This document shows, piece after piece, positions 26,603 to 46,200 of a DNA stretch of 64,000 nt. A program made the translations under genes and the position numbers. The DNA lies in NCBI RefSeq assembly GCF_015160855.1, contig NZ_CP063373.1:6572001-6636000 (forward strand), read 5' to 3'. This DNA is from Streptomyces ferrugineus. Its GTDB lineage: Bacteria > Actinomycetota > Actinomycetes > Streptomycetales > Streptomycetaceae. The notes under the pieces were generated by a model. That model was not told where the DNA came from and did no database searches. It was given only the letters and a program-made list of their open reading frames with translations. Numbering within the stretch: position 1 is the first letter of the stretch; each line of letters begins with the position of its first letter.

Positions 26603-27661
26603 TCAGCACTTCTCCCGCAGCGAGTGCAGATGCTCGCTGGAACGCCGGGCGAACGTGAAGGACTCGGTCGGGTTGTCGTGCTCCGCCTGCCAGTGGTGGG
26701 CGAATCGCCGGCCCCGCAGTCTCGTCACCGCGGAGATGAACCGCTTGTAGTCGATGTCACCGTCGCCGACGTCGACCATCTGGTAGCCGTACTGGTTGGC
26801 CGGGTCGCTCACGCCGTCCTTGACATGGAACAGCGGGTAGCGGTGGGGCTGCTTCAGCACGTAGTCCAGGGGTTCGAAGGGGGCGGGTGAGCCGTCCGGC
26901 CGCTTCGAGAAGCGGAACTGGCCGGAGTACGCCCAGAAGATGTCCATCTCCAGGTAGACGAGGTCGGGGTCGGTCTCGGCGAGCAGCACGTCGTAGAGGC
27001 GGACCTTGGGGTTGTCGGTGGCGAAGGAGAACTCCTCGGAGTGGTTGTGCTGGTAGAACTTCATGCCGCGCGCCTTCGCCGCGGCGCCGTAGGTGTTGAA
27101 CTCCTCGGCGGCGCGCTTCCAGGCGTCGACGGTGGAGCCGTACCGGAACGGCCCGGACGCGGTGCCTATGTGCTTCAGGCCGAGGGCCTCGGCGTCGTCC
27201 AGGACCTTGGTGAGGTTCTGGGCGAAGGTGTAGGCGCCCGGGTCGTTGGAGTAGTAGCCGACGTGGCTGCCGATCGGGTTCAGACCATAATTCCTGGCCA
27301 GCCGCTTGAGCTGGGCGAGGGTGATCGGGCCGGCCGAGCCCTGGGTGTATCCGGCGAACTCCACCTCGTCGTAGCCGCACTTCGCCAGTTCGGCGAAGAC
27401 GGGGGCGAAGCCGAGCGTGGAGACCTTGTCGCGCAGGCTGTAGAGCTGGATGCCGAGGCGGCCGGGCGGCAGGACGGGACGGCCGCGGCCGTGCCCGCGG
27501 GAGGCCGTGTCCGGGGCGGGCGCGGTGCCGGGGGCGGCGGTCGCGGGGGCCGCGGCGGCGCCCAGCAGGGCGGCGGCCGTGGTGCCCGCGGCCACACCGA
27601 GCATGCCTCGTCTGGTGAGGCGGTGGGTGAGTTCGGGATCCGTCGGGGAAAAGCGGCTCAT
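26603..27661 (-). CDS. Secreted (Tat) TIM-barrel sugar isomerase/epimerase-like protein
   Basis: A 352-residue protein with a twin-arginine signal (LTRRGMLGVAAG, then a long alanine-rich core ending near 'ATAAPG'), so it is exported folded. The mature part is a xylose-isomerase-like barrel: 'LGIQLYSLRDKV', 'YDEVEFAGYTQG', 'FYQHNHSEEF', 'LVYLEMDIFWAY' and 'PLFHVKDGVSD' contain the usual His/Glu/Asp metal ligands. The substrate is unknown. It is the last gene of the long leftward series and lies 46 bases after the eboF-like gene. Confidence 0.8.
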   Translation of the reverse strand: MSRFSPTDPELTHRLTRRGMLGVAAGTTAAALLGAAAAPATAAPGTAPAPDTASRGHGRGRPVLPPGRLGIQLYSLRDKVSTLGFAPVFAELAKCGYDEVEFAGYTQGSAGPITLAQLKRLARNYGLNPIGSHVGYYSNDPGAYTFAQNLTKVLDDAEALGLKHIGTASGPFRYGSTVDAWKRAAEEFNTYGAAAKARGMKFYQHNHSEEFSFATDNPKVRLYDVLLAETDPDLVYLEMDIFWAYSGQFRFSKRPDGSPAPFEPLDYVLKQPHRYPLFHVKDGVSDPANQYGYQMVDVGDGDIDYKRFISAVTRLRGRRFAHHWQAEHDNPTESFTFARRSSEHLHSLREKC

Positions 27662-27707: not shown

Positions 27708-29189
27708 TCACTTGGGACCAGTCGGAAGAGACGGGTCGGTGAGACCGGCGAGTTGGAGCAGGAGTGACTTCACATCGGTGGCCGCGACGCGGTCGCCGAC
27801 AGCGCGGGGGGTGGAGCAGATGAGGAGCGGACCGTCGTCGTCGCTCATGGGAAGGCGGCCGTGGCTGCCGCGAATAGGTGACGGATCCAGGGGCACGACC
27901 GCCATGCGATAGCGCATGCCGAGTTTCTTGCGCGCGAGCGCGGTCGCGGCCTTGACCTTGACGTAGGGGTCGAGGGGATCCATGAAGAGTTCGACCGGGT
28001 CGTAGCCGGGTTTGCGATGGATCTCGACGAGTCGCGCGAAGTCGGGCGCGCGGGCGTCATCGAGCCAGTAGTAGTACGTGAACCAGGCGTCCGGCTCCGC
28101 CACGGCGACGAGTTCGCCGGAGCGCGGATGGTCGAGATGGTGGTTCTTCTTGCCCTCGTCGTCGAGGAGTTGCTCAATGCCGGGCAGTCCGTCGAGTGCG
28201 GCCCGGGTCGCGTCGAGATCCTCCGGGCGGCGCACATAGACGTGGGCGATCTGGTGATCGGCGACCGCGAAGGCACGTGAGGCCATCGGGTCCAGGTACT
28301 CCATGCCGTCCTGGGTGTGCACTTCGAGCAGTCCCGCGCGGCGCAGGGCCCGGTTGATGTCGACGGGGCGGTCCGCGCGGGTGATGCCGTACTCGGACAG
28401 CGCCACCACGGTACGGCCCTCCGCTCGGGCGTCGTCCAGGAGCGGGGCCATGGCCGCATCCAGGTCGGCGGCCGCCTTCAGCGAACGTGGGTCGCCGGGG
28501 CCGAAGCGCTGCAGGTCGTAGTCGAGATGAGGGAGGTAGCAGAGCGTCAGATCCGGGTGCCGGGTGCGGTTGATGTGGCGGGTCGCGTCGATGATCCAGC
28601 GGCTGGAGACGAGGTCCGCGCCGGGGCCCCAGAAGTGGAAGAGCGGGAAGGTGCCGAATGTGTCGGTGAGTTCGTCGTGGAGAGCGGGTGGACGGGTGTA
28701 GCAGTCGGGTTCCTTGCGGCCGTCGGAGTAGTAGATCGGACGGGGGGTGACGGTGATGTCGGTGTCGGCGCCCATGGCGTACCACCAGCAGATGTTGGCG
28801 ACGGTGTAGCCGGGGTGGGCGCGGCGGGCGGCGTCCCAGAGTTTGTCGCCGGTGACCAGGCCGTTGTGCTGGCGCCACAGGAGTACGTCGCCGAGGTCGC
28901 GGAAGTACCAGCCGTTGCCGACGATGCCGTGCTCCGACGGGTGGGTGCCGGTGAGGAAGGTGGACTGGGCGGCGCAGGTGACGGCGGGCAGGACGGTGCC
29001 GAGCGGGGCGCGGGAGCCGGACTGGGCGAGGGCCTTGAGGTGAGGCATGTGGTCGAGCAGACGGGGGGTGAGGCCCACGACGTCCAGGACGAGGAGCGGG
29101 GTGGGACGGTGCGCGGCGGTGGCGTCCGGCCGGGGCGCTGGGCGGGTGGCCGGGGCTGCCGGGACCGTGGGGTCCGATGGCTCGGTCAT
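27708..29189 (-). CDS. Alkaline-phosphatase-fold nucleotide pyrophosphatase/phosphodiesterase, EboF-like
   Basis: A 493-residue protein of the type I phosphodiesterase/nucleotide pyrophosphatase family. 'LLVLDVVGLTPRLL' supplies the first metal Asp, 'PAVTCAAQSTFLTGTHPSEH' the nucleophile region with Thr, and 'YLPHLDYDLQRFGP' and 'VADHQIAHVYV' further metal ligands. No signal peptide is evident; the N-terminus is proline/alanine-rich. The ATG at 29189 overlaps the stop of the eboE-like gene (ATGA). In ebo operons the last gene, eboF, is of this family, which supports the assignment by both fold and position. The substrate is unknown. Confidence 0.78.
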   Translation of the reverse strand: MTEPSDPTVPAAPATRPAPRPDATAAHRPTPLLVLDVVGLTPRLLDHMPHLKALAQSGSRAPLGTVLPAVTCAAQSTFLTGTHPSEHGIVGNGWYFRDLGDVLLWRQHNGLVTGDKLWDAARRAHPGYTVANICWWYAMGADTDITVTPRPIYYSDGRKEPDCYTRPPALHDELTDTFGTFPLFHFWGPGADLVSSRWIIDATRHINRTRHPDLTLCYLPHLDYDLQRFGPGDPRSLKAAADLDAAMAPLLDDARAEGRTVVALSEYGITRADRPVDINRALRRAGLLEVHTQDGMEYLDPMASRAFAVADHQIAHVYVRRPEDLDATRAALDGLPGIEQLLDDEGKKNHHLDHPRSGELVAVAEPDAWFTYYYWLDDARAPDFARLVEIHRKPGYDPVELFMDPLDPYVKVKAATALARKKLGMRYRMAVVPLDPSPIRGSHGRLPMSDDDGPLLICSTPRAVGDRVAATDVKSLLLQLAGLTDPSLPTGPK

Positions 29190-30355
29190 GGCAGCTCCTT
29201 CAGGCCCAGGTCGGTCAACAGGTCGCGGGCGAGGGTGAGTTCGGCGGCGATGCCGTCGGCGAGCTGGCTGCGGGCGCGGGGCCGCAGTTCGGCCGGGAGG
29301 GCCTGCCAGGTGTATGTCTCCACCTCCAGGTGGCGGGTGAGCGGCTGCGGGCCGCCGACGAGACGGGCCAGGGCGGCCTTCAGGACATCGAGTGTGGAGG
29401 TGAGGGGCGCGGCGGGGGCCGCGTGCAGCGGGACGTGGAAGTGGGCGCGCCACGGGGAGGCGTCGGGGAGGGCGTCGCCGTTGAGGGCCTGGCCGAGGTC
29501 GTCGGTGCAGCGCAGGCCGGCGGCGGTGGCCGTGCGGGTCTGGTGCAGGAAGCGGGGTTCGTCGAAGGCGGCGAGGGCCTCGCGGACATCGGGGAGGTGC
29601 GGGTGTTCGGCGTGCAGTGCGGCCGACAGCTGGGACTTGACGACGGGGACGCGGGCTGCGGTGAGCGCGTCCAGGGCGGTGTGCGGATCTTCGAAGGAGG
29701 TGGCGAGGTGGCAGGTGTCGACGCAGATGCCGATGCGGTCGTGGCCGATCGCGGTGAGCGGGGCGATGGCGTCGCCGGTGGTCTCGACGGTGCAGCCCGG
29801 TTCGGGTTCGAGGCCGACGCGGATGTCGCGGCCGGTCAGCTCCCGCAGGGCGTCGAGGCGTTCGGCGAGGGTGCGCAGGGCCGTGCGGGCGGTCCCGGCG
29901 CGGTCCTCGTCATAGGCGGTGCGCCAGGTGAGGGGCAGGGTCGAGATGCTGCCCTCGGTGACGTCGTCGGGGAGGAGTCCGGCGAGGACACGGGCCAGGG
30001 CCGTGGTGTGGTCGAGGCGTTCGGGGTCGGCCCAGTCCGGCTTGTAGACGCGGTACTTGACCTCTTCGGCGCCGAACCCCTCGTACGGGAAGCCGTTGAG
30101 GGTGACGACCTCGAGGCCACGCCGGTCGAGTTCGGTGCGCAGGCCGCGCAGGGCGGAGGGGTCGGTGACGAGGGAGTGCGCGGCGTCCTTGGCGAGCCAC
30201 AGGCCGATGCCGAGGCGGTCGCGGCCGAGCCGTCGGCGGACGGGTTCGCAGTGGTCGCGGAGTTGGGCGAGGACGCCGTCGAGGGTCTCGGCCGGGTGGA
30301 CGTTGGTGCAGTAGGCGAGGTGGATGGTGGAGCCGTCGGGGTGGCGGAAGCGCAT
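29186..30355 (-). CDS. EboE-like TIM-barrel protein (metabolite traffic protein family)
   Basis: A 389-residue protein starting 'HLAYCTNVHPAETLDGVLAQ', the characteristic opening of EboE. It has 'TLNGFPYEGFGAEEVKYRVY', 'RVGLEPEPGCTVETTGDAI' and 'IGICVDTCHLATSFEDP', the barrel strands with Glu/Asp/His ligands typical of sugar-phosphate isomerases. It starts three bases after the eboB-like stop and overlaps eboF. EboE is one of six proteins that in cyanobacteria are needed to move a scytonemin precursor across the inner membrane; its chemistry has not been defined as far as I know. Confidence 0.8.
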   Translation of the reverse strand: MRFRHPDGSTIHLAYCTNVHPAETLDGVLAQLRDHCEPVRRRLGRDRLGIGLWLAKDAAHSLVTDPSALRGLRTELDRRGLEVVTLNGFPYEGFGAEEVKYRVYKPDWADPERLDHTTALARVLAGLLPDDVTEGSISTLPLTWRTAYDEDRAGTARTALRTLAERLDALRELTGRDIRVGLEPEPGCTVETTGDAIAPLTAIGHDRIGICVDTCHLATSFEDPHTALDALTAARVPVVKSQLSAALHAEHPHLPDVREALAAFDEPRFLHQTRTATAAGLRCTDDLGQALNGDALPDASPWRAHFHVPLHAAPAAPLTSTLDVLKAALARLVGGPQPLTRHLEVETYTWQALPAELRPRARSQLADGIAAELTLARDLLTDLGLKELP

Positions 30356-30358
30356 GGC

Positions 30359-31279
30359 TCACGCCCCCGGGGACGGGGCGGCGGCCCGGGTGTCCGACTC
30401 ACCCGGTGCGGCTGCCGGTCCGTCCGGGTCCTTGGGGGCGCCGCGGAGGATGGAGTTGCCCTCGTGGGTGGCCTCCGGAGTGGCGACATCGAGGGTGAGG
30501 CGGCCGCTGAGCCCGTAGAAGGCGACGGGGTTGCGCCACAGCACCAGGTCGACGTCGTCCTCGCCGAAGCCCTCGGCCAGCATCAGGTCCGCGACCTTGC
30601 GGGTCTTCAGGGGGTCGCTCCTGCCCCAGTCGGCGGCGGAGTTCACCAGGACCTGCTCGGGTCCGTACGCGCGGAGGATCGCGATCATCCGCTCCTCGTC
30701 CATCTTGGTGTCGGGATAGACGGAGAAGCCGAGCCAGCAGCCGCTGTCCTTGGCCTCCTTCACCGTGGTCTCGTTGAGGTGGTCGACGAGGACACGCTCT
30801 GGGGGCAGCGCGGACTCCCGGACGACGTCGAGGGTGCGGCGCAGGCCCGCCAGCTTGTCGCGGTGCGGGGTGTGGACGAGCGCGGGCAGTTCATGGTCGG
30901 CGGCGAGCTGGAGCTGGGCGGCGAGGGCGGTGTCCTCGGCGGGCGTCATCGAGTCATAGCCGATCTCGCCGACGGCGACGACCTGGTCCTTGACGAGATA
31001 GCGGGGCAGCTCGTCGAGGACGGGGACACAGCGGGGGTCGTTCGCCTCCTTGGGATTGAGGGCGAGCGTGCAGTGGTGCGCGATGCCGTACTGCGCGGCG
31101 CGGAAGGGCTCCCAGCCGAGGAGCGAGTCGAAGTAGTCGAGGAAGGAGGCGGGAGAGGTGCGGGGCTGGCCGAGCCAGAAGGAGGGCTCGACGACGGCGC
31201 GGACGCCGGAGGCGTGCATGGCCTCGTAGTCGTCGGTGGTGCGGGACGTCATGTGGATGTGGGGGTCGAAGAGGCGCAT
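30359..31279 (-). CDS. TatD-type metal-dependent hydrolase, EboB-like
   Basis: A 306-residue amidohydrolase-fold protein with the N-terminal metal motif FDPHIHMTSR, 'VVAVGEIGYDS' (bridging Glu), 'PALVHTPHRDK', 'VLVDHLNETT' and a late Asp in 'LVNSAADWGRSD'. This matches TatD-family hydrolases, and EboB in the ebo operon is of this family. The last about 40 residues are a disordered proline/alanine tail. Its ATG overlaps the last base of the eboA-like stop codon (TGATG). The start at 31279 is fixed by the MRLFDPHIHM motif. Confidence 0.82.
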   Translation of the reverse strand: MRLFDPHIHMTSRTTDDYEAMHASGVRAVVEPSFWLGQPRTSPASFLDYFDSLLGWEPFRAAQYGIAHHCTLALNPKEANDPRCVPVLDELPRYLVKDQVVAVGEIGYDSMTPAEDTALAAQLQLAADHELPALVHTPHRDKLAGLRRTLDVVRESALPPERVLVDHLNETTVKEAKDSGCWLGFSVYPDTKMDEERMIAILRAYGPEQVLVNSAADWGRSDPLKTRKVADLMLAEGFGEDDVDLVLWRNPVAFYGLSGRLTLDVATPEATHEGNSILRGAPKDPDGPAAAPGESDTRAAAPSPGA

Positions 31280-32229
31280 CAGGACTCCTTGCCGTCGGTG
31301 CCGCGGCTGCCGCGCTCGGCGGCGGGTGCGGGCGGGATGGCCGTGGGGTCGGTCAGGGTCAGGACGCGGTGCAGGTCTTCGGGCACGGGACGGCCCGCGG
31401 CGGTGCGTTCGGCGGCGTAGTCGCCGAGCATGCGGGCGAGTTCGGCGTCGCGGTGGGCGCGGCGGTCCAGGTCGGCCACGGTGTCGACGCGGACACCGGT
31501 GAACAGGCACTTCAGGACGGCGTGCCGCCACTGGTGGGGGTCGAGGTGCCGGGCGGCGTAGGGGCCGACGGCGGCGGCGAGGAGGCGGGTGTCGTTGGTG
31601 CGCAGGGCGTCCTCGACGAGCGGGAGTGCCTCCGGGCCGGGTACGAGGTGGGGCAGCGCGTGCAGGACGGCGCGGCGTTCGGCGGCGGTGCCCTGGAAGT
31701 AGACCCGGGTGAGGGCGTCCGTGTCGGCGCGGGCCGCGTGCAGGATCAGGACGCGGGCGGCGTCGGCGTACTCGGAGCCGCAGCGACGCCCGGCCTCGGC
31801 GATGCGCAACTCCCAGACGGAGATGGGGCCGTGGGTCCCGGGATGTGCGGCAGCCTCGTCGAGGGCTCGGTGGAGCCAGGCGCCGGCGGCCGAGCCCAGG
31901 TGCGCGGTGAGATCGGCGCGCAGGTCGGGGGGTGGGGTGAGGGCGAGGGCGAGGGGTGTGCCCGGGGTGGCTGACGGGTGCGGGGCGTGTGCCTGGCCTT
32001 CGGTGGCCGCTCGGTCCTGGGTGCTCGCCCGACCCGCGGTGCTCGCCCGACCCCCGGTGCTCGCCCGGCCCTGGGTGCTCGCCCGACCCTCTGTGCTCGC
32101 CCGGTCCTGGGTGCCGTCGGTTCGGCTCTCGGCGTCGGCTCGCTTCTCGGCGGGCGTTCCGGGCTCGGCGCGCGTTCGAGGCTCGGTGTCCGCGCCCGGG
32201 GTCGCCGGGCTGGTGCGGGGGCGGGTCAT
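31279..32229 (-). CDS. EboA-domain protein with a repetitive disordered N-terminus
   Basis: A 316-residue protein. Residues about 1-95 are low-complexity with repeated RAST-G/Q units. From about residue 105 it has the EboA features 'WLHRALDEAAAHP', 'ISVWELRIAEAGRRCG', 'DALTRVYFQGTAAERRAVL' and 'RTNDTRLLAAAVGPYAARHL', then 'LDPHQWRHAVLKCLFTGV'. The function of EboA is unknown; it defines the ebo gene set. It is coupled on both sides (ATGA with the upstream TIM gene, TGATG with eboB). Confidence 0.8.
   Translation of the reverse strand: MTRPRTSPATPGADTEPRTRAEPGTPAEKRADAESRTDGTQDRASTEGRASTQGRASTGGRASTAGRASTQDRAATEGQAHAPHPSATPGTPLALALTPPPDLRADLTAHLGSAAGAWLHRALDEAAAHPGTHGPISVWELRIAEAGRRCGSEYADAARVLILHAARADTDALTRVYFQGTAAERRAVLHALPHLVPGPEALPLVEDALRTNDTRLLAAAVGPYAARHLDPHQWRHAVLKCLFTGVRVDTVADLDRRAHRDAELARMLGDYAAERTAAGRPVPEDLHRVLTLTDPTAIPPAPAAERGSRGTDGKES
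32021..32110. repeat. Five tandem 18-bp units within the eboA-like gene
   Basis: The unit is approximately gtgctcgcccgaccctgg, repeated five times in register with a further degenerate partial copy upstream. In the minus strand it encodes RASTxG/Q hexapeptides. Because 18 is divisible by three, copy changes stay in frame. Confidence 0.85.
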
Positions 32230-33293
32230 GAGGTGCTCCCTTCGGGGGTGGCGGAGGGATCGCCATGGGGTGGGACGAGTGCGGGTGATCGGGTGGCCGT
32301 TGCCTCGGCGCGGCGGAGGAACGGCAGGGAGAGTTCGGCGAAGTGGGGGCCCGCGTGGGAGTGGCGGGGCAGTTCGACGACGGTCAGGCCCCGGTAGCCG
32401 GAGGCGGAGAGGGCGGCGAGGACGGGTGGGAAGTCGATCTCGCCGTCGCCGAAGGGGAGGTGTTCATGGATGCCGCGGCGCATGTCCTCGATCTGGACGT
32501 GGCGCAGCCAGGGGGCGGCGGCGCGTACGCAGTCGGCGGGAGAGAGGGGTTCGAGGCACTGGCAGTGGCCGATGTCGAGGGTCAGGCCGAGGTGTTCGGG
32601 GTCGCCGAGTGCCCGGCGGAGTCGGTGGAAGTCGGCGAGGGTGGCGAGGAGGTGGCCGGGTTCGGGTTCGACGGCGAGCGGGATGCCGGTCGCGGTGGCG
32701 ACGTCCAGGACCGGGGCGAGCGCGTCGGCCAGACGCTGCCAGGCGGTGTCCTGGTCCGTGCCCGGCGGTGTGAGTCCGCTGAAGCAGTGGACGGCGTGGG
32801 CACCGAGGTCGGCGGCCACCCGGACGGCGCGGAGCAGCAGGTCGACGCGGCGGGCGCGGTCGTCCGGGTCGGGGTCCAGCAGGGAGGGGCCGTGCTTGCG
32901 GCGCGGGTCGAGCACATAGCGGGCGCCCGTCTCCACGGTGGCGCCCAGGCCGAGCGCGTCCAGCCGCTGCGCGAGGCGGCGGGTGCGGGCGGCGAGATCC
33001 AGGGCGAGCGGGTCGAGGTGCATGTGGTCGAGGGTCAGGCCGACTCCGTCGTAGCCGAGGTCGGCGAGGAGGGCCAGGGCGTCGTCGAGGCGGAGGTCGG
33101 CGAGGCCGTTGGTGCCGTAGCCGAAGCGGAGGACGGCACCGGGCTGCCCGATGCCGGTGCCGTGCAGCAGGCGGGCGTCGGTGCCCGAGGCTTCGGCGGG
33201 ACGCGCCGGGACAGCCGTCGCCCGGCTCGGCGGGGTGGCGCTGCGGCCCGACGCCCCGTTGGACCTGCCCGGATCGGTCGTCGCGTCGCTCAT
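32226..33293 (-). CDS. TIM-barrel sugar phosphate isomerase/epimerase in the ebo-like operon
   Basis: A 355-residue protein with a disordered first about 50 residues and then a xylose-isomerase-like barrel: 'LRFGYGTNGLADLRLDDAL', 'YDGVGLTLDHMHLDP', 'IPLAVEPEPGHLLATLADF', 'LGLTLDIGHCQCLEP' and 'VQIEDMRRGIHEHLPFGDG' give the Glu-Asp-His-Glu metal set. It overlaps both neighbours by four bases (ATGA). It is an extra member compared with the six-gene ebo set and may be a partner or paralogue of EboE. The substrate is unknown. Confidence 0.8.
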   Translation of the reverse strand: MSDATTDPGRSNGASGRSATPPSRATAVPARPAEASGTDARLLHGTGIGQPGAVLRFGYGTNGLADLRLDDALALLADLGYDGVGLTLDHMHLDPLALDLAARTRRLAQRLDALGLGATVETGARYVLDPRRKHGPSLLDPDPDDRARRVDLLLRAVRVAADLGAHAVHCFSGLTPPGTDQDTAWQRLADALAPVLDVATATGIPLAVEPEPGHLLATLADFHRLRRALGDPEHLGLTLDIGHCQCLEPLSPADCVRAAAPWLRHVQIEDMRRGIHEHLPFGDGEIDFPPVLAALSASGYRGLTVVELPRHSHAGPHFAELSLPFLRRAEATATRSPALVPPHGDPSATPEGSTS

Positions 33294-34306
33294 GTGACGC
33301 TCACCTTCCTTCCGAATCTCCGGCCGAGCGCGGTGAGTCCGGCGACGAACAGGGCGGTGCGGGCGGCGCCGGATCGGGCGCACAGAGCGGCCTGGAGCGG
33401 GATGGTGGCGCGGATGCCGCCGCCGACGGCTCGTTGGGTGAGCGGGGGTGAGGGGTTGAGCGTGGCGTGGAGGTAAGGGCGGGCGGCGGTCGCGGCGTAA
33501 GCCGCGGCCAGGGCAGTACTCAGGGCGCGGGCGCCCGGCGAGCCGGCACCGCCAACCGCGAGGGCGGCGGCGTGCCGACGGCCCTCCAGGCCATGGGCGT
33601 CCGCAGACCCACCGCCCGCCGGAGATCCCGTGGGTCGGCGTGACAGAAGCCGGCTCAGGAGTGCCGTCGTGGTCAGCGCCGCGAGCGGTGCCAGGGGCGA
33701 ACCGCCCCTGGTCTCCTGGCGGGACACCGCGGTGACCGCCAGCGTGTGGGTGCCGAGCAGGGCGGCTGACGGGAGGGCCTCGCGGGTGTGGCCGGTCGTT
33801 GCCGCTGCGCCCAGGAGGAGGTCCAGTGCACGGGCCGTGGCCATGGCCGCGGGTCCGGCGGGCGTGTGTTTCAGGGCGAGGTCGTAAGCCCAGACGGTGG
33901 CCGCGAGCGGCGCGGCAACCGTGAGGGCGGGGCGGCCGGCGCGGGCGGCGAGTGCGAGGCCCGCGCCGGTCAGGGCGCAGGCCGCGGTGAGGGCGGCTGC
34001 GGGGTGGACGCGGCCGGACGGGAGGGGGCGATGGGGGCGCTCGGCGGCGTCCTCCGCGCGGTCCGCCCAGTCGTTGAGGGCCATTCCGGCCTCGTACAGA
34101 CAGAGGGAGGAACCGATGGCGAGCAGGGTGCGGGAATTGGGGCGGGCCGCGGTCGTGGCGGCGCCTGCGAGGGCGTCGCCGGGGACGGTGAACAGGGCGG
34201 GGAGGCGGAGCAGTTCGGCCCAGGCGAGTGCCGTACGGCGCGGCTCTCCCGTAGCGCCGATGGCCGGCGGCGTGGACGTCGCCCTGCGCCGCCGGTGCCG
34301 GTTCAC
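33290..34306 (-). CDS. UbiA-like membrane prenyltransferase, EboC-like
   Basis: A 338-residue integral membrane protein. The first aspartate motif lies in 'MALNDWADRAEDAAERPHRP', followed by 'LPSGRV', the hallmark of the UbiA family. About seven to nine hydrophobic segments follow. A clear second DxxxD motif is not visible, so catalysis may be altered. The GTG at 34306 overlaps the stop of the preceding gene (GTGA). EboC is the UbiA-like member of ebo operons; a role in attaching or handling a prenyl carrier at the membrane is possible but unproven. Confidence 0.78.
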   Translation of the reverse strand: MNRHRRRRATSTPPAIGATGEPRRTALAWAELLRLPALFTVPGDALAGAATTAARPNSRTLLAIGSSLCLYEAGMALNDWADRAEDAAERPHRPLPSGRVHPAAALTAACALTGAGLALAARAGRPALTVAAPLAATVWAYDLALKHTPAGPAAMATARALDLLLGAAATTGHTREALPSAALLGTHTLAVTAVSRQETRGGSPLAPLAALTTTALLSRLLSRRPTGSPAGGGSADAHGLEGRRHAAALAVGGAGSPGARALSTALAAAYAATAARPYLHATLNPSPPLTQRAVGGGIRATIPLQAALCARSGAARTALFVAGLTALGRRFGRKVSVT

Positions 34307-35475
34307 CGGCGCTCCTCGTCGGAGCCGGAGTGCGGCGCCGGCTCTCCCGGGCGCTCCACCCTCAATCGTTGCGCGAAGCCCGCCAGGGCCGCGTACTGCT
34401 CCCCGAGCGCCGCCGGCCCCTCCCCCGCCGGGTCCTTGAAGTAGAAGCCGAGTTCGGAGAGCGGGCCGGACAGGCCGGCCTCGTGGGCGCGTGCCGTCAA
34501 GCGGGCCAGGTCGAGGACCAGGGGTGCCGCGAGGGACGAGTCGCAGCCCTGCCAGGTGGTCTGGAGGACCATGCGGGTGCCGAGGAAGCCGTCGAAGGCG
34601 ATGTGGTCCCAGGCGGTCTTCCAGTCGCCGAGGGCGGGGACGTCGTCGATGTGGACCTCGCCCTCGGGAGCGGTGCCGAGGGTGTCGGCCAGGACCCTCT
34701 CCTTGCCGGCGTTCTTCGCCGCCGCCGCGGCCGGGTCGGCGAGAGAGGCGCCGTCGCCGCCGCCCAGCAGGTTGGTGCCGGACCAGGCGCGGACGGCCAG
34801 CGCGCGTTGGGCGAACATCGGGCCCAGCACGGACCGCAGCAGCGTCTGGCCCGTCTTGCCGTCGCGCCCCGCGAAGGGCAGCCCGGCCGACGCAAGCAGG
34901 GGTGCCAGCGCGGGGTGGTCCAGGCCGGTCGAGGGGGTGAAGTTCACGTAGGGGCAGCCCGCTCGCAGGGCCGCCGCCGCGTACAGCGAACTCGGGGGCA
35001 GTGCGGTGCCGGTGGGCGGCGGCTCGGTGGAGGCGACGTTGACCACGACCGCGCGGGTGAGGTCGTAGCGCCGTATGAAGTCCTGGATGTCGTCCGCGAA
35101 GGCGGTGATCAGGTCGGGATCGCCGCGCGTGTCGCCGGGGAGCGGGCCGCCGGGCCTGATCTCCGCGTCCGCCGTGGCGAGTTCGGCGCGTACCGCCGTG
35201 GGCAGGCCCGGGGGCAGCACACCGCCCGCTGCCAGGGCTTCCGCGCGTTTGGGCAGGGGGCAGTCCACCGTGTCGTGGCCGCCGAAGACCAGGGACGACA
35301 GCGCGGGCAGGCCGCTGTCCGCGAACATGGGCGTCTCGGTGACCAGGCCCGTCGGCGGGTGCAGTCCCGCGGTGACGGCGGCGCACCCGGCGACGACGGT
35401 CGTGGCGACGGAGCCGCGCGCCCCGATCAGCCAGACGCCGACGCGCGCCACGGACGGGGAAACGGACGCGGACAT
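34303..35475 (-). CDS. Inositol-3-phosphate-synthase-like enzyme
   Basis: A 390-residue member of the myo-inositol-1-phosphate synthase family, which cyclises a hexose phosphate by NAD-dependent oxidation and internal aldol closure. NAD-binding 'LIGARGSVATTVVAG' is at residues about 16-30. Further conserved blocks are 'PYVNFTPSTG', 'GRDGKTGQTLLRSVL', 'WSGTNLLGGGDG' and 'LSELGFYFKDP'. It is the first gene of a seven-gene overlapping series and lies where ebo operons usually have the dehydroquinate-synthase-like eboD. It is divergent from housekeeping Ino1 in several loops, so the product may not be plain inositol phosphate. Confidence 0.85.
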   Translation of the reverse strand: MSASVSPSVARVGVWLIGARGSVATTVVAGCAAVTAGLHPPTGLVTETPMFADSGLPALSSLVFGGHDTVDCPLPKRAEALAAGGVLPPGLPTAVRAELATADAEIRPGGPLPGDTRGDPDLITAFADDIQDFIRRYDLTRAVVVNVASTEPPPTGTALPPSSLYAAAALRAGCPYVNFTPSTGLDHPALAPLLASAGLPFAGRDGKTGQTLLRSVLGPMFAQRALAVRAWSGTNLLGGGDGASLADPAAAAAKNAGKERVLADTLGTAPEGEVHIDDVPALGDWKTAWDHIAFDGFLGTRMVLQTTWQGCDSSLAAPLVLDLARLTARAHEAGLSGPLSELGFYFKDPAGEGPAALGEQYAALAGFAQRLRVERPGEPAPHSGSDEERR

Positions 35476-35588: not shown

Positions 35589-37001
35589 TCAGTCGCCCTG
35601 CGAAGCCGTGGGTCCGGCGGAGTCCGCGGACTCGGTCGGCCTCGTGGGCTTCGTGGGCAGTTCCTTGATCCGGATGTCACGGAAGGACACCTCGTCGTCG
35701 GCTCCGTGGTTCTGGATGCCGATGTGTCCGTCGGTGAGGCTCCGGGCCGGGTCGGTGTTGGTGAAGTCGTTGATCTTCACACCGTTGAGATAGACGCGGA
35801 GGCGCTCGCCCTCCACGCGGATCTCGTAGGTGTTCCACTCACCCGGCGGGTTCAGCGCGCGGTCACGTTTCTTCAGGTCGGCGGACTTGAAGCCGTACAC
35901 CGCGCCGGTGGTGCGGTCGGCGGCGTCGGTCGCGTCGATCTGGATCTCATAACCGTTGTTGACGGCCGACCACGGGTCGTCCGAGGGCGGGAAGCCCACG
36001 AACACACCGGAGTTGTCGTCGCCGGCCATCTTCCAGTCGAGCTTCACGGAGTACGACCCGAAGCCTGATCCGGCGTACCAGAGCATCCCCATCCCGCCGG
36101 TCGAGGTGAGGGTGCCGTCGGCGGCCAGGGTGAAGGAGCCGGGGCCCGCCTGTCGCCAGTCGTCCAGCGAGGCCTGTGTGCCGTCGAAGAGGGGGCGGTA
36201 GCCCGTCTCGGGGCGGCAGTCGGCCTGTGCGTCGCCGATCGCCCAGCGGATTCCGCCGAGCAGGTGCTCGCGGAACAGGGGCTCGGCGTAGGACTCCTTG
36301 GTGTGGCCGCCCCCGGTGTAGAAGGCGCGGCCGCCCTGGTAGTTCTGGCACCAGGCGATCGGGTGGTCGCCGTTCATGGTGCCGCCGGTGTACGAGGACT
36401 CGTCGAGGGACGCCAGGACATGGGCCCGCTCACGGGGGTTCGAGCGGTAGTTGTACCACTCGTCCGTGCGGTTCCAGGTCTGGGCGAGACCCGAGGTCGC
36501 CGGGTGGGCGTGGTCCTCGACGTCCACCGTCGCGGGCTGGATCGCCGGGTGCGACTGGAAGTAGGCGCCGGCGAGGCCGCCGTAGAACTCCCAGTCGTAC
36601 TCGGTGTCGGCGGCCGCGTGGATGCCGACGTACGCCCCGCCCTGCCGGATGTATCCCTCGAACGCCCGCTGCTGGGCGTCGTTCAGGACGTCTCCGGTCG
36701 TGGACAGGAACACGACCGCGGCGTAGCGGCCGAGGTTGCCGGCGGTGAAGGCGGCGGCGTCCTCGGTCGCGTCGACCGTGAAGCCGCCCTGCTCGCCGAG
36801 CTGCTTGACCGCGGCGACGCCGTCGGGGATGGAGTCGTGGCGGAAGCCGGCCGTCTTGGAGAAGACCAGCACCCGCTCGGCCTTGGCCCCCGGGCGCGGG
36901 TCGCGGGTGGACTGTGACGCGGCCGGTCCCGAGACGCAGCCGAGGAGTACGGCCGCTCCCACGACTGCCGTTGTCAGTCGTCCGGTTGGACGCATACGCA
37001 T
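35589..37001 (-). CDS. Secreted ThuA-domain lipoprotein fused to a DUF1080 (3-keto-disaccharide hydrolase-like) domain
   Basis: A 470-residue exported protein with a lipobox-like VLLGC near residue 22. Residues about 40-250 are a ThuA glutamine-amidotransferase-like fold ('RVLVFSKTAGFRHDSIPDGV', 'GGAYVGIHAAADTEYDW', 'PIAWCQNYQGGRAFYTGGGH'). Residues about 265-450 are a DUF1080 jelly roll ('YRPLFDGTQASLDDW', 'DDNSGVFVGFP', 'GEWNTYEIRVEGERLRVYLN'). DUF1080 proteins have been linked to cleavage of 3-keto-glycosides, and ThuA to trehalose/keto-sugar metabolism, so it may act on oxidised disaccharides at the cell surface. Confidence 0.82.
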   Translation of the reverse strand: MRMRPTGRLTTAVVGAAVLLGCVSGPAASQSTRDPRPGAKAERVLVFSKTAGFRHDSIPDGVAAVKQLGEQGGFTVDATEDAAAFTAGNLGRYAAVVFLSTTGDVLNDAQQRAFEGYIRQGGAYVGIHAAADTEYDWEFYGGLAGAYFQSHPAIQPATVDVEDHAHPATSGLAQTWNRTDEWYNYRSNPRERAHVLASLDESSYTGGTMNGDHPIAWCQNYQGGRAFYTGGGHTKESYAEPLFREHLLGGIRWAIGDAQADCRPETGYRPLFDGTQASLDDWRQAGPGSFTLAADGTLTSTGGMGMLWYAGSGFGSYSVKLDWKMAGDDNSGVFVGFPPSDDPWSAVNNGYEIQIDATDAADRTTGAVYGFKSADLKKRDRALNPPGEWNTYEIRVEGERLRVYLNGVKINDFTNTDPARSLTDGHIGIQNHGADDEVSFRDIRIKELPTKPTRPTESADSAGPTASQGD

Positions 37002-37016: not shown

Positions 37017-39536
37017 TCAGCCCGTCGTGAAGGTGAAGTCGTCCACGTCGTACAGGGCTCCGGTGCCGCTGCCCTTGAAGACCAGGTAGAGCGTGGTGGT
37101 GCCCCTGGGCGCGCGGGACAGGTCGGCGCTGACGTCCTGGAAGGTCTCCCAGCCGCCGGTCACCGGGACGGTCGCCTTGCCGAGCAGGGTGCCCGTCGAG
37201 GATCCCGCACGGACCTCGAGCGTGCCGCCCGCGCCGCCGGAGGAGATGCGCGCGGTGATCTTCTTGGCGTTGCTCAGGGCGTACGGCGTGAAGGAGATCC
37301 AGTCGCCGTTGTTGATGTTGCCGACCGTCCGGCCGCCGTGCGCGGCGTCCTTGGTGATGACGGAGACGCCGGAGCCGTTGCCGAAGTGCTCGGCCTGGCG
37401 GTGCTTGGGCTGGGTGACGTTCTGGTCGTGGGTGGTGAGCGGGGCCTGGCCGCCGCCGCCGTTGTCGGTGTACTCGGCGTCGATGACGCCGAAGATGTTG
37501 GCGTCCTCGTCATGGCCGCCGTCGGCGCTGGTCTGGAGGGTGCCGGTGCAGCCGTTGGCCGAGGTCAGCGGGTGGCCGTGGCTGTCGTGGCCGAGGATGA
37601 AGCTGACCTTGACCTTGGAGCAGTCGATGGTCCGGTCCTCGGGGTCACTGACCTTCACCTTGAACGGGATCCCGTCACCGAAGCTGAACAGCTGTCCGTC
37701 CTGCGGGAGTTCCAGCGTCACCTTGGGCGCGGTGTTGCCGACCACGATCTGCACGCTCGCGCTGCCGGTGCGGCCCGAGGGGTCCTTGGCGGTCAGGGTC
37801 GCGGTGTAGGTGCCGTTCTTCTTGTAGCGGTGCGTCGGGTTGGCCGCCGTGGACTTGCCGCCGTCGCCGAAGTCCCAGCTGTAGGTCAGGGCGTCGCCGT
37901 CCTGGTCGGACGTGCCCTCCGAGGAGAACCGGACCCTGAACGGGGCCTTCCCGGACGTCCTGCTCGCCGCGGCCTGCGCGACCGGCGAGTGTCCGTCGGT
38001 GGCGTTCTCGATGCGGTACAGGGCCGAGTTCTCGTCGCCGCCGAACCAGGCGGTGCCGTAGTCGAGGACGTACAGCGCGCCGTCCGGGCCGAAGGCCATG
38101 TCCATGATCTGGGTGCCGGTCCACGGGACGTCGTTGATCGACTGCACGGTCCCGGCGTCGTCGCTGACGATCCGCTTGATCCAGCGGCGGCCGAACTCCC
38201 CGGCGAAGAAGTTCCCGTCGTAGGCCTCGGGGAACTTCACCGGCGAGTCGAGCGCGGCGTCGTAGTGGTAGACCGGGCCGCCCATCGGCGACTCGGAGCC
38301 GGTGCCGAACTCGGGCACGGATCCGCCGTCGTAGGGGATCCAGGCGGCCTGGGCCGGGGGAAGGTCGGTCAGGCCGGTGTTGTTCGGTGAGGTGTTCTTC
38401 GGGGCGGCGCAGTCGAAGGCCGCGCCGGACTGGCCGGTGGCGAAGTCGTAGTCGACGTAGGCGTCGTTGTCACCGGTGCAGTACGGCCACCCGAAGTTGC
38501 CGGGGCCGGTGACGCGGGCGAACTCGACCTGTCCCGCCGGGCCGCGCGCCGGGTCGGCGGCGCCGGCGTCGGGGCCGTAGTCGCCGACGTAGAGGATCCC
38601 CGTCTCCTTGTCGACGCTGAAGCGGAACGGGTTGCGGAAGCCCATCGCGTAGATCTCGGGCCGTGTCTTGTCGGTGCCGGGCGCGAAGAGGTTCCCGTCC
38701 GGGATCGAGTAGGAGCCGTCGGCGTTCACCTTGATGCGCAGGATCTTGCCCCGCAGGTCGTTGGTGTTGCCGGAGGAGCGCTGGGCGTCGAAGGCCGGGT
38801 TGCGGTTGGCGCGCTCGTCGATCGGGGTGAAGCCGTCCGACTGGAACGGATTGGTGTCGTCGCCCGTTGAGAGATACAGGTTGCCCGCCGCGTCGAAGTC
38901 GATGTCACCGCCGACATGGCAGCACAGGCCGCGGGAGGCGGGGATGTCGAGGATCTTCGTCTCGCTGGCCGTGTCGAGCGTGCCGTCGGTCTTCAGGACG
39001 AAGCGGGAGAGGCGGTTGACGCCGTCGAAGGGGGCGAAGTCGGCCGCCGTCCCGGTCTCGGGGGCGTCGCCGGCGGGGGTGTCGAGCGGGGGTGCGTAGT
39101 AGAGGTAGATGAAGCGGTTCTCGGCGAATCCGGGGTCGACGCCGACGCCCTGCAGGCCTTCCTCGTCGTGGGTGTACACGTCGAGCTTGCCCGCGAGTTC
39201 GGTGTTGCCGGCCGCGTCGGTGAGGCGCAGTTCGCCGTCGCGGGAGGTGTGCAGGACCGAGCGGTCCGGGAGGACGGCGAGCGACATGGGCTCGCCGACC
39301 TCCGGTTCGCCCTTGGCGAGGGTGACCTGCTGGAAGTCCTCGGCCGCGGCGGCCTCAGCGGCAGCCGCGGCGGTCCCCTCGCCGGCGACGGCTGCGCCGG
39401 CCTGGGGTGCGGTGAAGGTGAGTGTCGCGCCCGCCAGCAGCGCGCCGCTCAGCAGTGCCACCGCCTTGCGGAAGGACGGGCGTCGTCTGTGGGTCTCGCT
39501 TCTGCCGGTGCTGGTGATGCGGTCGTTCCCGTGCAC
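37017..39536 (-). CDS. Secreted PQQ-dependent sugar dehydrogenase-like protein with PKD and CBM6-type domains
   Basis: An 839-residue exported protein with a signal peptide in about the first 48 residues (RKAVALLSGALLAGATLTF). Next is a six-bladed propeller like soluble glucose dehydrogenase ('DEEGLQGVGVDPGF', 'LCCHVGGDIDFDAAGNLYL', 'PEIYAMGFRNPFRFSVD'). A PKD domain follows ('LTYSWDFGDGGKSTAANPTH'), then a CBM6-like carbohydrate-binding module at the C-terminus ('INNGDWISFTPYAL'). The GTG at 39536 is the likely start. It could oxidise sugars outside the cell; no PQQ synthesis genes are in the window. It precedes the ThuA/DUF1080 gene by 15 bases. Confidence 0.82.
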   Translation of the reverse strand: MHGNDRITSTGRSETHRRRPSFRKAVALLSGALLAGATLTFTAPQAGAAVAGEGTAAAAAEAAAAEDFQQVTLAKGEPEVGEPMSLAVLPDRSVLHTSRDGELRLTDAAGNTELAGKLDVYTHDEEGLQGVGVDPGFAENRFIYLYYAPPLDTPAGDAPETGTAADFAPFDGVNRLSRFVLKTDGTLDTASETKILDIPASRGLCCHVGGDIDFDAAGNLYLSTGDDTNPFQSDGFTPIDERANRNPAFDAQRSSGNTNDLRGKILRIKVNADGSYSIPDGNLFAPGTDKTRPEIYAMGFRNPFRFSVDKETGILYVGDYGPDAGAADPARGPAGQVEFARVTGPGNFGWPYCTGDNDAYVDYDFATGQSGAAFDCAAPKNTSPNNTGLTDLPPAQAAWIPYDGGSVPEFGTGSESPMGGPVYHYDAALDSPVKFPEAYDGNFFAGEFGRRWIKRIVSDDAGTVQSINDVPWTGTQIMDMAFGPDGALYVLDYGTAWFGGDENSALYRIENATDGHSPVAQAAASRTSGKAPFRVRFSSEGTSDQDGDALTYSWDFGDGGKSTAANPTHRYKKNGTYTATLTAKDPSGRTGSASVQIVVGNTAPKVTLELPQDGQLFSFGDGIPFKVKVSDPEDRTIDCSKVKVSFILGHDSHGHPLTSANGCTGTLQTSADGGHDEDANIFGVIDAEYTDNGGGGQAPLTTHDQNVTQPKHRQAEHFGNGSGVSVITKDAAHGGRTVGNINNGDWISFTPYALSNAKKITARISSGGAGGTLEVRAGSSTGTLLGKATVPVTGGWETFQDVSADLSRAPRGTTTLYLVFKGSGTGALYDVDDFTFTTG

Positions 39537-39639: not shown

Positions 39640-40638
39640 TCAGTTGCCGAACGCCGCGTCGAAGGAGGCGGACGGCGGCTCGAAGTCGTAGGCCTTGAGA
39701 CGGGTCAGCGCCTCGGGGGCGCCCTGGAGCCGGTCCATGCCGGCGTCCTCCCACTCGACGGAGATCGGTCCCTGGTAGCCGATGGAGCGCAGCATCCGGA
39801 AGACGTCCTCCCAGGGCACGTCGCCGTGCCCGGCCGACACGAAGTCCCAGCCCCGGCGCGGGTCGCCCCACGGCAGATGGGAGCCGAGGCGGCCGTTGCG
39901 TCCGTCGAGGCGCTTGCGGGCCTCCTTGCAGTCGACGTGGTAGATGCGGTCGCGGAAGTCCCAGAGGAAGCCGACCGGGTCGAGGTCCTGCCACACGAAG
40001 TGCGAGGGGTCGAAGTTCAGCCCGAAGGCCGGGCGGTGGTCGACGGCTTCGAGGGTGCGTACGGTCGTCCAGTAGTCGTAGGCGATCTCGCTCGGGTGGA
40101 CCTCGTGCGCGAACAGCACACCCTCCGCGTCGAAGACGTCGAGGATCGGGTTCCAGCGCTCGGCGAAGTCCGCGTAGCCGCGTTCGATCATCGACTCGGG
40201 CGCGGGCGGGAACATGGCGACCAGATGCCAGATGGCGGAGCCGGTGAAGCCGATCACGGTGTCGACGCCGAAGGCGGCCGCGGCGCGCGCGGTGTCCTTC
40301 ATACGGTCCGCGGCGCGCCGCCGTACCCCCTCCGGGTCGCCGTCGGCCCACACCTCGCCCGGCAGGATGGCCTGGTGGCGTTCGTCGATGATGGCGTCGC
40401 AGACGGCCTGGCCGACCAGGTGGTTGGAGATCGCCCAGCACTTGAGGCCGTACTTGTCGAGCAGGGCCTTCCTGGAGTCGATGTACGACGGGTCCGCCAG
40501 GGCCTTGTCGACCTCGAAGTGGTCGCCCCAGCAGGCGAGTTCGAGCCCGTCGTAGCCGAAGTCGCGGGCGAGCCGACAGACCTCCTCCAGCGGCAGGTCG
40601 GCCCACTGGCCGGTGAACAGCGTGAACGTACGCGGCAT
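39640..40638 (-). CDS. Sugar phosphate isomerase/epimerase (TIM barrel)
   Basis: A 332-residue cytosolic xylose-isomerase-like barrel with '[20 protein letters not shown]', '[17 protein letters not shown]', '[18 protein letters not shown]', '[20 protein letters not shown]' and a final '[11 protein letters not shown]', giving the Glu/Asp/His/Glu metal ligands. It lies 15 bases after the Gfo/Idh/MocA gene, a very common pair in sugar and keto-sugar catabolism in which the barrel protein epimerises or isomerises what the oxidoreductase makes. There is no signal peptide. Confidence 0.82.
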
Positions 40639-43558: not shown

Positions 43559-44578
43559 TCAGGTCGTGCTCGCGGTACGGCGCTGGACCAGCACGGCGGC
43601 GACGATGATCGCGCCCTTGGCGATCTGCTGGACGTCGCTCTGCAGGTTGTTCAGGGCGAAGATGTTGGTGATCGTGGTGAAGATCAGGACGCCGAGCACG
43701 GAGCCGGTGATGGTGCCGCGGCCCCCGCTGAGCAGCGTGCCGCCGATGATCGCGGCCGCGATGGCGTCGAGTTCGTAGAGGTTGCCGTTGGTGTTCTGAC
43801 CGGAGCCGGACAGGATGATCAGCAGGAAGGCGGCGATGCCGCAGCACAGTCCGGACAGCAGGTAGAGGTAGAGCCGCTGGCGGCGTACGTCGATGCCGGC
43901 GAGGCGGGCGGCCTCCGCGTTGCCGCCGACGGCGACCGTGCGCCGCCCGAAGGTGGTGCGGTTCAGCACCAGCCAGCCGATGATCGTCACGACCGCGAAC
44001 ACCATGACCAGCGGCGGGATGCCGAGCACATAGGCGTCGCGCTCGCCGAGGTCCAGCACGGAGGGGATGGTGACGATCTGTGTCTTGCCGTCGGTGATCT
44101 GGAGGGCCAGGCCGCGCGCGGAGGCCAGCATGGCGAGCGTGGCGATGAACGGGACCATGCCGCCGTACGCGATCAGCAGGCCGTTGACCAGTCCGCACCC
44201 CACGCCGACCAGTACGGCCGTGAAGAGGATGCCGCCGAAGCCGTACTCCTGGGTGGCCACCGTCGTCGCCCACACCGAGGCGAGCGCGACGATCGCGCCG
44301 ACGGACAGGTCGATGCCGCCGGAGGTGATGACGAAGGTCATGCCGACGGTGACGACGCCGATCACGGAGGCCTGGGTGAGGACGAGTTGGAGGTTGCGGG
44401 TGTCCAGGAACTGGTCCGGCTTGGTGATGCCGCCGATGATGATCAGCGCGGCGAGGACGCCGAGCAGGGAGAGCGTGCGCACGTCGGCGCGGGCGATCAG
44501 GCCCCGCCAGGCGGGGGGTCCGTCGGCCGACGGCACCTTGCCGGTGCTGTCCCGCGGCGGGGAGGCGTGCTGCGTCAT
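43559..44578 (-). CDS. Ribose-type ABC importer, permease
   Basis: A 339-residue membrane protein of the RbsC family with about nine hydrophobic segments. It has 'VGMTFVITSGGIDLSVGAIV', 'LLIAYGGMVPFIATLAML', the coupling-helix region 'GGNAEAARLAGIDVRR' and 'LDAIAAAIIGGTLLSGGRGT', all family hallmarks. It overlaps the ATPase gene by four bases and precedes the binding protein by 17 bases, so the three form one operon. Confidence 0.9.
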   Translation of the reverse strand: MTQHASPPRDSTGKVPSADGPPAWRGLIARADVRTLSLLGVLAALIIIGGITKPDQFLDTRNLQLVLTQASVIGVVTVGMTFVITSGGIDLSVGAIVALASVWATTVATQEYGFGGILFTAVLVGVGCGLVNGLLIAYGGMVPFIATLAMLASARGLALQITDGKTQIVTIPSVLDLGERDAYVLGIPPLVMVFAVVTIIGWLVLNRTTFGRRTVAVGGNAEAARLAGIDVRRQRLYLYLLSGLCCGIAAFLLIILSGSGQNTNGNLYELDAIAAAIIGGTLLSGGRGTITGSVLGVLIFTTITNIFALNNLQSDVQQIAKGAIIVAAVLVQRRTASTT

Positions 44579-46095: not shown

Positions 46096-46160
46096 GAGGT
46101 CCCCTTGGCGGGCGTGCGGGCCGGTTCAGGGCAGGGCGAGGCGGGGCGCGGTGCTGGTAC

Positions 46161-46200
46161 AGCCGTACTGAACTGAGTGCTGCCGTACTGAGCTGAGTGC
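46161..46200. repeat. Tandem 20-bp repeat upstream of the sugar importer
   Basis: agccgtactgaactgagtgc is followed directly by tgccgtactgagctgagtgc, two 20-bp copies with two mismatches, the second ending at the ROK gene's stop codon. The position, 66 bases before the ATPase start, would suit a regulator-binding site or a promoter spacer. The ROK protein next door is the obvious candidate binder, but this is inference. Confidence 0.6.

Follow-up and report, generated by a model that had tools for sequence, protein, structure and literature searches.

What takes the place of EboD in an ebo operon from which it is missing? The question was raised by a seven-gene operon of Streptomyces ferrugineus, located at positions 27708–35475 of a 64,000-nt window (contig NZ_CP063373.1, 6,572,001–6,636,000, of a 9.96-Mb genome assembled as one contig; coordinates without a prefix are positions in this window). 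The ebo operon (eboA-F) has been reported from cyanobacteria, Bacteroidota and eustigmatophyte plastids (PMC5133447, PMC6282210; papers cited by PMC number are represented here by the passages available from them). An isoprenoid-cyclitol ebo product was proposed by Yurchenko et al., who assigned EboD to the sugar-phosphate-cyclase superfamily and observed that TIM-EboA fusions occur in Actinobacteria (PMC5133447). Beyond bacteria and algal plastids, ebo-like clusters have now been found in haloarchaea as well. In the S. ferrugineus operon the EboD slot is filled by an enzyme of the myo-inositol-1-phosphate synthase (MIPS) family, and this MIPS-type ebo operon is a recurrent variant.

Gene content of the operon

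The seven genes lie on the minus strand in the order MIPS-like, UbiA, TIM barrel, EboA, EboB, EboE and EboF, and encode proteins of 390, 338, 355, 316, 306, 389 and 493 residues, respectively. An earlier note, made from the sequence alone, had described the same genes at this place and in this order, and coordinates and profile scores agree with it. The overlap of nearly all the genes was also read correctly: five of the six junctions overlap, by 4, 4, 4, 1 and 4 nt, with a 3-nt gap between EboB and EboE, which makes a single translation-coupled operon the natural reading. A promoter scan found no sigma-70-like site, and terminator-like sites numbered 2 against 2.4 expected. The segment 28001–36000 has the highest GC content of the window (0.73–0.75) and a GC skew of +0.16 to +0.24.

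EboE (29186–30355, a TIM barrel) matched NF035939 with 425.5 bits against a curated cut-off of 250, and the EboA-domain protein (31279–32229) matched NF035938 with 163.1 bits against a cut-off of 50; these were the two families on which the earlier note had let the identification depend. EboB (30359–31279), a TatD-like metal-dependent hydrolase, and EboF (27708–29189), of the nucleotide pyrophosphatase/phosphodiesterase family, were assigned by Pfam (PF01026, 49.1 bits, cut-off 27; PF01663, 235.2 bits, cut-off 23). The operon is thus of the ebo type. One correction to the note concerns the second TIM barrel (32226–33293, xylose-isomerase-like; PF01261, 152.6 bits), which lies outside eboA-F and is a near-constant partner of MIPS, present in 29 of the 30 MIPS-type loci compared below.

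The UbiA-type prenyltransferase (33290–34306, GTG start) is EboC-like. It belongs to the 'SCO3242 family' (NF045897, 390.2 bits, cut-off 260) and has the PF01040 domain (77.9 vs 34.2), whereas its score against the EboC family NF035940, 123.4 bits, is below the cut-off of 250. In S. coelicolor, SCO3242, a 'putative transferase', and SCO3243, a 'myo-inositol phosphate synthase', are listed with the calcium-dependent antibiotic cluster (PMC3610822). These adjacent locus tags mirror the UbiA/MIPS pair of the window, whose UbiA family is named after SCO3242. The S. coelicolor genes just before SCO3242 are, we assume, ebo genes.

The window operon therefore resembles eboA-F in combining homologues of the EboA domain, EboB, UbiA, EboE and EboF, and differs from it in having MIPS and an extra TIM barrel instead of EboD, in the order MIPS-C-TIM-A-B-E-F, and in the SCO3242-family membership of its UbiA protein. 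Since EboD is not universal in the published clusters (PMC5133447), we classed the operon as an ebo variant. In alignments, the main motifs of EboB, UbiA and EboF are common to MIPS-type and EboD-type clusters, which suggests that the supply of the ring is the chief difference between them. Two EboF motifs, SEYG and HLDYDLQ, are similar in both types; they presumably occupy the metal-ligand places of typical nucleotide pyrophosphatases, and EboF may have an altered metal site.

EboA is less well characterized by profile. It scored 61.1 bits against the narrower EboA family NF035937 (cut-off 320), and its first ~100 residues appear by eye to be of low complexity. A relative from locus L059 was predicted to have an all-helical fold (pLDDT 95.4). 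This model had no PDB match at E ≤ 0.001; the best rows, at E of about 0.5–1, included several helical-repeat proteins, so that from the structure search the predicted fold can be called 'scaffold-like' at most.

A MIPS-family enzyme in the EboD slot

The first gene of the operon (34303–35475, 390 amino acids) was assigned to the MIPS family by both Pfam domains, PF01658 (101.5 bits) and PF07994 (116.3 bits), each above its cut-off, and by the retention of catalytic residues. Positions N255, K278 and K367 of Archaeoglobus fulgidus MIPS, for which the mutants N255A, K278A and K367A are in the PDB, correspond to N235, K258 and K347 in a gap-free part of the alignment. K254, K286 and D312 of the window protein are the counterparts of K274, K306 and D332 of the A. 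fulgidus enzyme, which we take to be catalytic residues. All six residues are invariant in the MIPS alignments and are shared by the housekeeping enzymes. The twelve positions compared agree with ordinary MIPS, with one S/T difference. Structure prediction confirmed the MIPS fold: A. fulgidus MIPS was the best structural match of the model (pLDDT 79.6, with lower values in the catalytic domain). The window gene differs from the A. fulgidus-type myo-inositol-1-phosphate synthase (1u1i) in its location in an ebo operon. The fold is also that of Ari2, named in the PDB listing as a five-membered-cyclitol-phosphate synthase (6k96), which indicates that the family can yield another cyclitol.

A genome-wide profile search for PF01658 gave two matches, the window gene and the housekeeping Ino1. 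The latter, at C1:266641-267693, scored 734.1 bits against the mycothiol Ino1 family TIGR03450 (cut-off 638), compared with about 30.6–30.8 bits for the window protein, which rules out that the operon gene is the housekeeping Ino1, let alone the only one, a possibility that the earlier note had raised against itself. No EboD was found in the S. ferrugineus genome. An EboD hidden elsewhere was rejected: the single PF01761 (EboD/AroB) match lies ~3.3 Mb from the operon and is taken to be AroB. The MIPS catalytic set is intact, and the proposal that a MIPS-family enzyme occupies the EboD slot was upheld.

Mutual exclusion of MIPS and EboD

We compared 30 MIPS-type actinobacterial loci, 89 EboD-type loci and 11 cyclase-less Streptomyces loci. 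The EboD-type set comprised nine chosen plasmid records and 80 loci, the top-scoring of 580, that matched an EboD-type EboE, a selection that cannot show absence of MIPS-type clusters from those phyla. One of the 80, L088, is the Solirubrobacteraceae contig that supplied the query. The counts exclude L067, a disrupted cluster with no MIPS in its stretch, from a genome listing two MIPS genes (G244).

The order MIPS-C-TIM-A-B-E-F was exact in 27 of the 30 MIPS-type loci, so the arrangement is not confined to one genome, and the conservation across actinobacteria that the earlier note had wished to see checked is real. In the exceptions there was no TIM match (L051), no separate EboA match (L065), or a contig edge before MIPS (L181); among the 27, L046 has only a short piece of MIPS. 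EboD was found in none of the 30 MIPS-type loci and MIPS in none of the 89 EboD-type loci, 84 of which contain EboD; five (L097, L117, L118, L121 and L150) have neither in the stretches compared. The TIM barrel that accompanies MIPS was present, besides the MIPS-type loci, in all 11 cyclase-less loci, with a single match among the 89 EboD-type loci. The Solirubrobacteraceae cluster has the order EboD-B-E-C-F, without MIPS, TIM or EboA. That MIPS has displaced EboD is well supported.

A survey of 396 Actinomycetota genomes detected EboE in 27 (26 above cut-off) and PF01658 in 278. Two or three MIPS genes occur in each of the 16 Streptomyces genomes that carry EboE, and one in each of the four that lack it. 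For family f8 a single MIPS gene was recorded in the genome with EboE and none in the seven relatives listed.

A larger survey covered 150 Streptomyces genomes, with 12 first-look candidates scored per genome and thresholds of at least 300 bits for EboE and at least 250 bits for the ebo-MIPS profile. Each was found in 103 genomes: both in 100, EboE only in three, MIPS only in three, and neither in 44. The three genomes with MIPS only are each assembled in some 700–1010 contigs, and two of these genomes carry an EboE fragment (39.7 and 79.2 bits). Among the 44 negatives, G457 had one 84-bit and G474 two 122-bit profile matches. Of the 116 EboE loci in these genomes, 89 have MIPS on the same strand at a distance of 3.3–5.7 kb upstream. 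Inspection of 17 of the other 27 loci revealed 11 cyclase-less clusters, four in which the contig ends ahead of MIPS, and two belonging to the scrambled tandem of G452. A chance neighbourhood is ruled out by the conservation of the operon and its surroundings.

Phylogeny and clusters in other phyla

In a tree built from EboB, EboE and EboF of 107 loci (1116 columns; 27 MIPS-type, 11 cyclase-less, 69 EboD-type) all MIPS-type and cyclase-less loci formed one clade apart from the EboD-type loci (support 0.98–1.0). The 11 cyclase-less loci were a single group (support 1.0) nested in this clade, and MIPS was therefore probably lost there.

MIPS also occurs outside the actinobacteria. A cluster on a Gemmatirosa plasmid (Gemmatimonadota) contains MIPS and TIM, with no EboD and no EboA match in the 25-kb stretch, and three haloarchaeal ebo-like clusters carry MIPS. 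In a midpoint-rooted EboB+F tree of 115 loci the three haloarchaea stood apart, while Gemmatirosa fell, at support 1.0, into a group with 11 EboD-type loci, of which ten have EboD (all except L117) and none has an EboA match. In the MIPS tree the 27 actinobacterial ebo-MIPS proteins clustered together (0.936) and were joined (0.999) to haloarchaeal MIPS, three from the ebo-like clusters and two standalone; Gemmatirosa MIPS branched outside both, with lower support (0.76–0.78). The position of Gemmatirosa EboB+F among EboD-type loci, together with its MIPS gene and the MIPS tree, suggests that ebo probably acquired MIPS on more than one occasion. The Gemmatirosa case comes from a single unannotated plasmid, and the haloarchaeal clusters gave no EboA or EboE match.

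These data bear on another view of the enzyme, that it is a second ordinary inositol-phosphate synthase for mycothiol or phosphatidylinositol, placed in the operon by chance. The agreement of the twelve positions with ordinary MIPS fits this view, and two genomes with cyclase-less ebo clusters manage without ebo-MIPS. The near-complete co-occurrence with EboE, the first place in the operon, the great distance from TIGR03450 and the presence of MIPS in the clusters of Gemmatirosa and haloarchaea speak against it, and we consider it highly improbable.

Sugar-oxidation genes beside the operon

The conserved upstream neighbour of the operon (35589–37001) encodes a protein with ThuA and 3-keto-disaccharide hydrolase domains (PF06283, 277.8 bits; PF06439, 152.5 bits) and an apparent export signal, judged by eye. 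It is followed, likewise on the minus strand, by a GSDH protein with PKD and CBM6 domains (37017–39536; PF07995, 119.4; PF18911, 79.1; PF03422, 115 bits), a xylose-isomerase-like TIM barrel, TIMu (39640–40638; PF01261, 149.6 bits), a Gfo/Idh/MocA oxidoreductase (40654–41913), and an ABC permease, an ABC ATPase and a ROK regulator (43559–47391; PF02653, 123; PF00005, 182.4; PF00480, 199.3 bits). The nearest curated family of the Gfo/Idh/MocA protein is levoglucosan dehydrogenase (NF052479, 376 bits, cut-off 650); it scored 117.8 bits against the inositol 2-dehydrogenase family (cut-off 355). On the downstream side, a TIM barrel with an apparent export signal, again by eye (26603–27661, minus strand; PF01261, 57.5 bits), has relatives in the same place in window-type Streptomyces loci. 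The earlier note had mentioned neither the sugar-oxidation module nor the second ebo cluster of this genome, and it had not linked the second TIM barrel to MIPS or reported MIPS in ebo-like clusters of haloarchaea and Gemmatirosa.

ROK, ABC ATPase, permease and Gfo were present in all 13 window-type Streptomyces upstream stretches, and 12 of them also contain GSDH. In the remaining one, from G335, MIPS is the short piece of L046, and GSDH and ThuA are both missing from the stretch; with the other ebo genes kept, this locus looks like a natural deletion. In family f6 (both genomes) the sugar-module genes are reordered, with the ebo operon between Gfo and GSDH, and GSDH lies within the stretch in family f33 (2/2) and f18 (2/3). 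When shorter stretches were scored for GSDH as the best label of a frame, it was found in 14 of the 30 MIPS-type loci. As background, the whole S. ferrugineus genome has four GSDH genes.

Related genes recur beside ebo in other groups. In Natronococcus these are ABC genes and genes for a PF06439-TIM protein and a GSDH protein that includes a cupredoxin domain; in Halocatena they are ThuA, TIM and ABC genes; in Haladaptatus DUF1080, Gfo, TIM and ABC genes lie beside a cluster without MIPS in the stretch, and the Halobaculum stretch contained no sugar-module genes beyond its TIM genes. The Gemmatirosa cluster has two Gfo genes and a 429-bit relative of the window TIMu. In Ketogulonicigenium two Gfo genes abut EboD and a TIM gene follows EboB. 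Of the two Salipiger plasmids, one encodes a PQQ-family dehydrogenase next after EboB. Three Bacteroidota loci encode a ThuA-GSDH-PKD-cytochrome c protein, and in the cyanobacterium Fortiea (L111) ScyD/ScyE-family and ScyF proteins precede EboA.

The neighbourhood could mean that the operon is catabolic, with MIPS, the TIM barrels and the phosphodiesterase belonging to a sugar-use module in which the ebo genes would process an imported sugar or cyclitol. The conserved ABC importer, ROK, levoglucosan-dehydrogenase-like Gfo/Idh/MocA and TIM barrels are in keeping with this, and in levoglucosan pathways the LgdA dehydrogenase works together with an ABC transporter and PF01261 proteins (PMC10066097), a set also represented in the window flank. 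The two differ in that the window Gfo protein is under the curated cut-off and that the available passages describe no ebo genes with the levoglucosan pathway (PMC10066097). Against a catabolic operon, MIPS and UbiA prenyltransferases are biosynthetic families, cyclase-less clusters and the L042/L051 group of Streptomyces clusters lack the sugar module, and in L111 ebo adjoins scytonemin genes. A catabolic role thus seems unlikely.

A proposed pathway

The reading that we regard as most likely is that the MIPS-type operon makes a prenylated cyclitol. The MIPS-family enzyme would act on a hexose phosphate, glucose 6-phosphate being the likeliest, and close it to an inositol-type cyclitol phosphate. 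It would thereby provide the ring for which other ebo clusters have EboD, a sugar-phosphate cyclase. The second TIM barrel, of the inosose-dehydratase/isomerase-like superfamily, may help to convert this ring for the shared enzymes. EboC (UbiA) would prenylate it in the membrane, and EboB, EboE and EboF would process the prenylated ring, EboF probably acting on a phosphate, with EboA as a helical scaffold. The product may serve extracellular oxidative sugar chemistry carried out by the neighbouring, putatively exported GSDH and ThuA/3-keto-disaccharide hydrolase proteins, which would be followed by import and 3-keto-type catabolism. We hold this pathway as a whole, with an inositol-derived product that serves sugar oxidation outside the cell, with about even confidence.

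Several observations weigh against it. In the 11 cyclase-less Streptomyces clusters C-TIM-A-B-E-F is kept without any cyclase, and two of the genomes (G405 and G456) have such a cluster only, profile searches finding ebo-MIPS in neither. A second MIPS gene is not ebo-specific, because eight EboE-negative genomes of other families in the 396-genome survey list two (G008, G011, G041, G062, G108, G145, G170 and G208). The choice of EboD-type loci by likeness to an EboD-type EboE, as the best 80 of 580, may under-sample MIPS-type clusters in other bacteria. The haloarchaeal clusters have no EboA and EboE matches and are ebo-like at most, and the window UbiA protein falls short of the EboC cut-off. 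The ebo-linked UbiA enzyme of marine Flavobacteria farnesylates quinolines, and cyclitols are unmentioned in the available passages of that report (Amiri Moghaddam et al., PMC9235831). The Nostoc ebo mutants have been interpreted as export mutants (PMC6282210). As to the neighbours, no GSDH was found near the MIPS-type loci of f8 (one locus), f3 (one locus) and the L042/L051 group; in the shorter stretches GSDH was found in just 3 of the 89 EboD-type and none of the 11 cyclase-less loci; and by annotation seven of the nine non-actinobacterial EboD-type plasmid loci have no GSDH, PQQ dehydrogenase or Gfo/TIM pair, one of the seven, Azospirillum, having a sugar ABC operon. Since GSDH is missing from most EboD-type and all cyclase-less loci, the link between ebo and GSDH is recurrent and not general.

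Klicki et al. found that each Nostoc ebo deletion tested was scytonemin-less, with the monomer confined to the cytoplasm, and proposed a role in translocation (PMC6282210). Applied to the window, the Ebo proteins would jointly move a small molecule across the membrane, with a cyclitol-prenyl unit as carrier, and EboC was indeed described as a membrane protein with seven transmembrane domains (PMC6282210). The operon, however, encodes no transporter-family protein, and six of its seven products look, by family, like soluble enzymes or a scaffold. Moreover, ebo and scyE deletions were reported to be biochemically identical (no scytonemin, accumulation of the monomer), and a missing periplasmic partner fits part of the data. 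We regard an export machine as possible but rather doubtful.

The Nostoc phenotype could also be accommodated if ebo were the pathway for an unrecognised exported redox cofactor, a prenylated ring serving secreted beta-propeller oxidoreductases. The ring would be made by EboD, or by MIPS followed by inositol oxidation and dehydration through a dehydrogenase and IolE-like TIM barrels, to give a polyhydroxylated aromatic or a quinone. Its clients would be the GSDH proteins of Streptomyces, haloarchaea and Bacteroidota, the PQQ-family dehydrogenase of Salipiger and ScyE of cyanobacteria, and the loss of periplasmic oxidative dimerisation in Nostoc would reflect loss of the ScyE cofactor, rather than or besides loss of transport. 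GSDH proteins near ebo have fused cytochrome c or cupredoxin domains in haloarchaea and Bacteroidota. In searches for PQQ synthesis in the S. ferrugineus genome the best PqqE match had 74.6 bits (cut-off 381) and PqqC had none, with no control genome above either cut-off. We think such a cofactor improbable; the tie of ebo to secreted oxidoreductases, as we infer it from the recurrent neighbours, is nevertheless a new and testable lead.

Returning to the prenylated cyclitol, the exchange of EboD for MIPS, probably in more than one lineage, suggests that the job of EboD is to supply a cyclitol-type ring. MIPS, a well-understood enzyme family, offers a handle on the ebo product. The operon is set in a concrete biological context by the conserved genes for sugar oxidation, and the genetic tractability of Streptomyces makes the question testable. 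No title or abstract opening found names an inositol-type ebo operon, subscription papers being mostly outside coverage, and the word 'inositol' is absent from the available text of PMC5133447, PMC6282210 and PMC9235831. In the literature searched there was no earlier description of the MIPS variant, of its presence in haloarchaea or Gemmatimonadota, or of the sugar-oxidation neighbourhood.

Clusters without a cyclase

One of the cyclase-less clusters lies in the S. ferrugineus genome itself, at about 6.861–6.873 Mb (L005:3307-15235), with its C-TIM-A-B-E-F genes at about 6.862–6.869 Mb and neither MIPS nor EboD. A P450 gene follows EboF, and CrtO-like, inositol-monophosphatase-family and gamma-glutamyltransferase genes precede EboC. 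Among the 11 loci P450 was found in ten, and CrtO and inositol monophosphatase in eight. The three families encoded before EboC looked like a replacement for MIPS but were rejected: CrtO and inositol monophosphatase occur in only 8 of the 11 clusters, and inositol monophosphatase and gamma-glutamyltransferase could be bystanders. The existence of these clusters, two of them in genomes without ebo-MIPS, suggests that ebo can do without its cyclase or can have it replaced, the housekeeping Ino1 being one candidate.

Other ebo-associated loci

In L179 (G452:C78) the genes A, B, E and F are each present twice, in two sets that interleave within a few kb, either a recent tandem or an assembly artefact. 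In the second MIPS-type cluster of G383 a TrpC-like protein (L051:7062-7850, by eye) follows EboF, and trp-like genes, also by eye, follow ebo in the cyanobacterial L111. A small membrane protein of the type found at L098:5505-5912 (TMEM220 family, PF15071; one member profiled) lies near ebo in 27 loci, none actinobacterial or cyanobacterial. Mycetohabitans and Aureibacter, members of two phyla, both have genes just before ebo for a large hypothetical protein and a ferritin-like one, the latter assigned by PF12902 in L191 and by annotation in L194 (L191:6051-9069, L194:5043-8103). Finally, a Hymenobacter plasmid (L203:4779-10945) carries an inositol-3-phosphate synthase gene with Gfo/Idh/MocA, YcaO and sugar isomerase genes, in a stretch with no ebo annotated.

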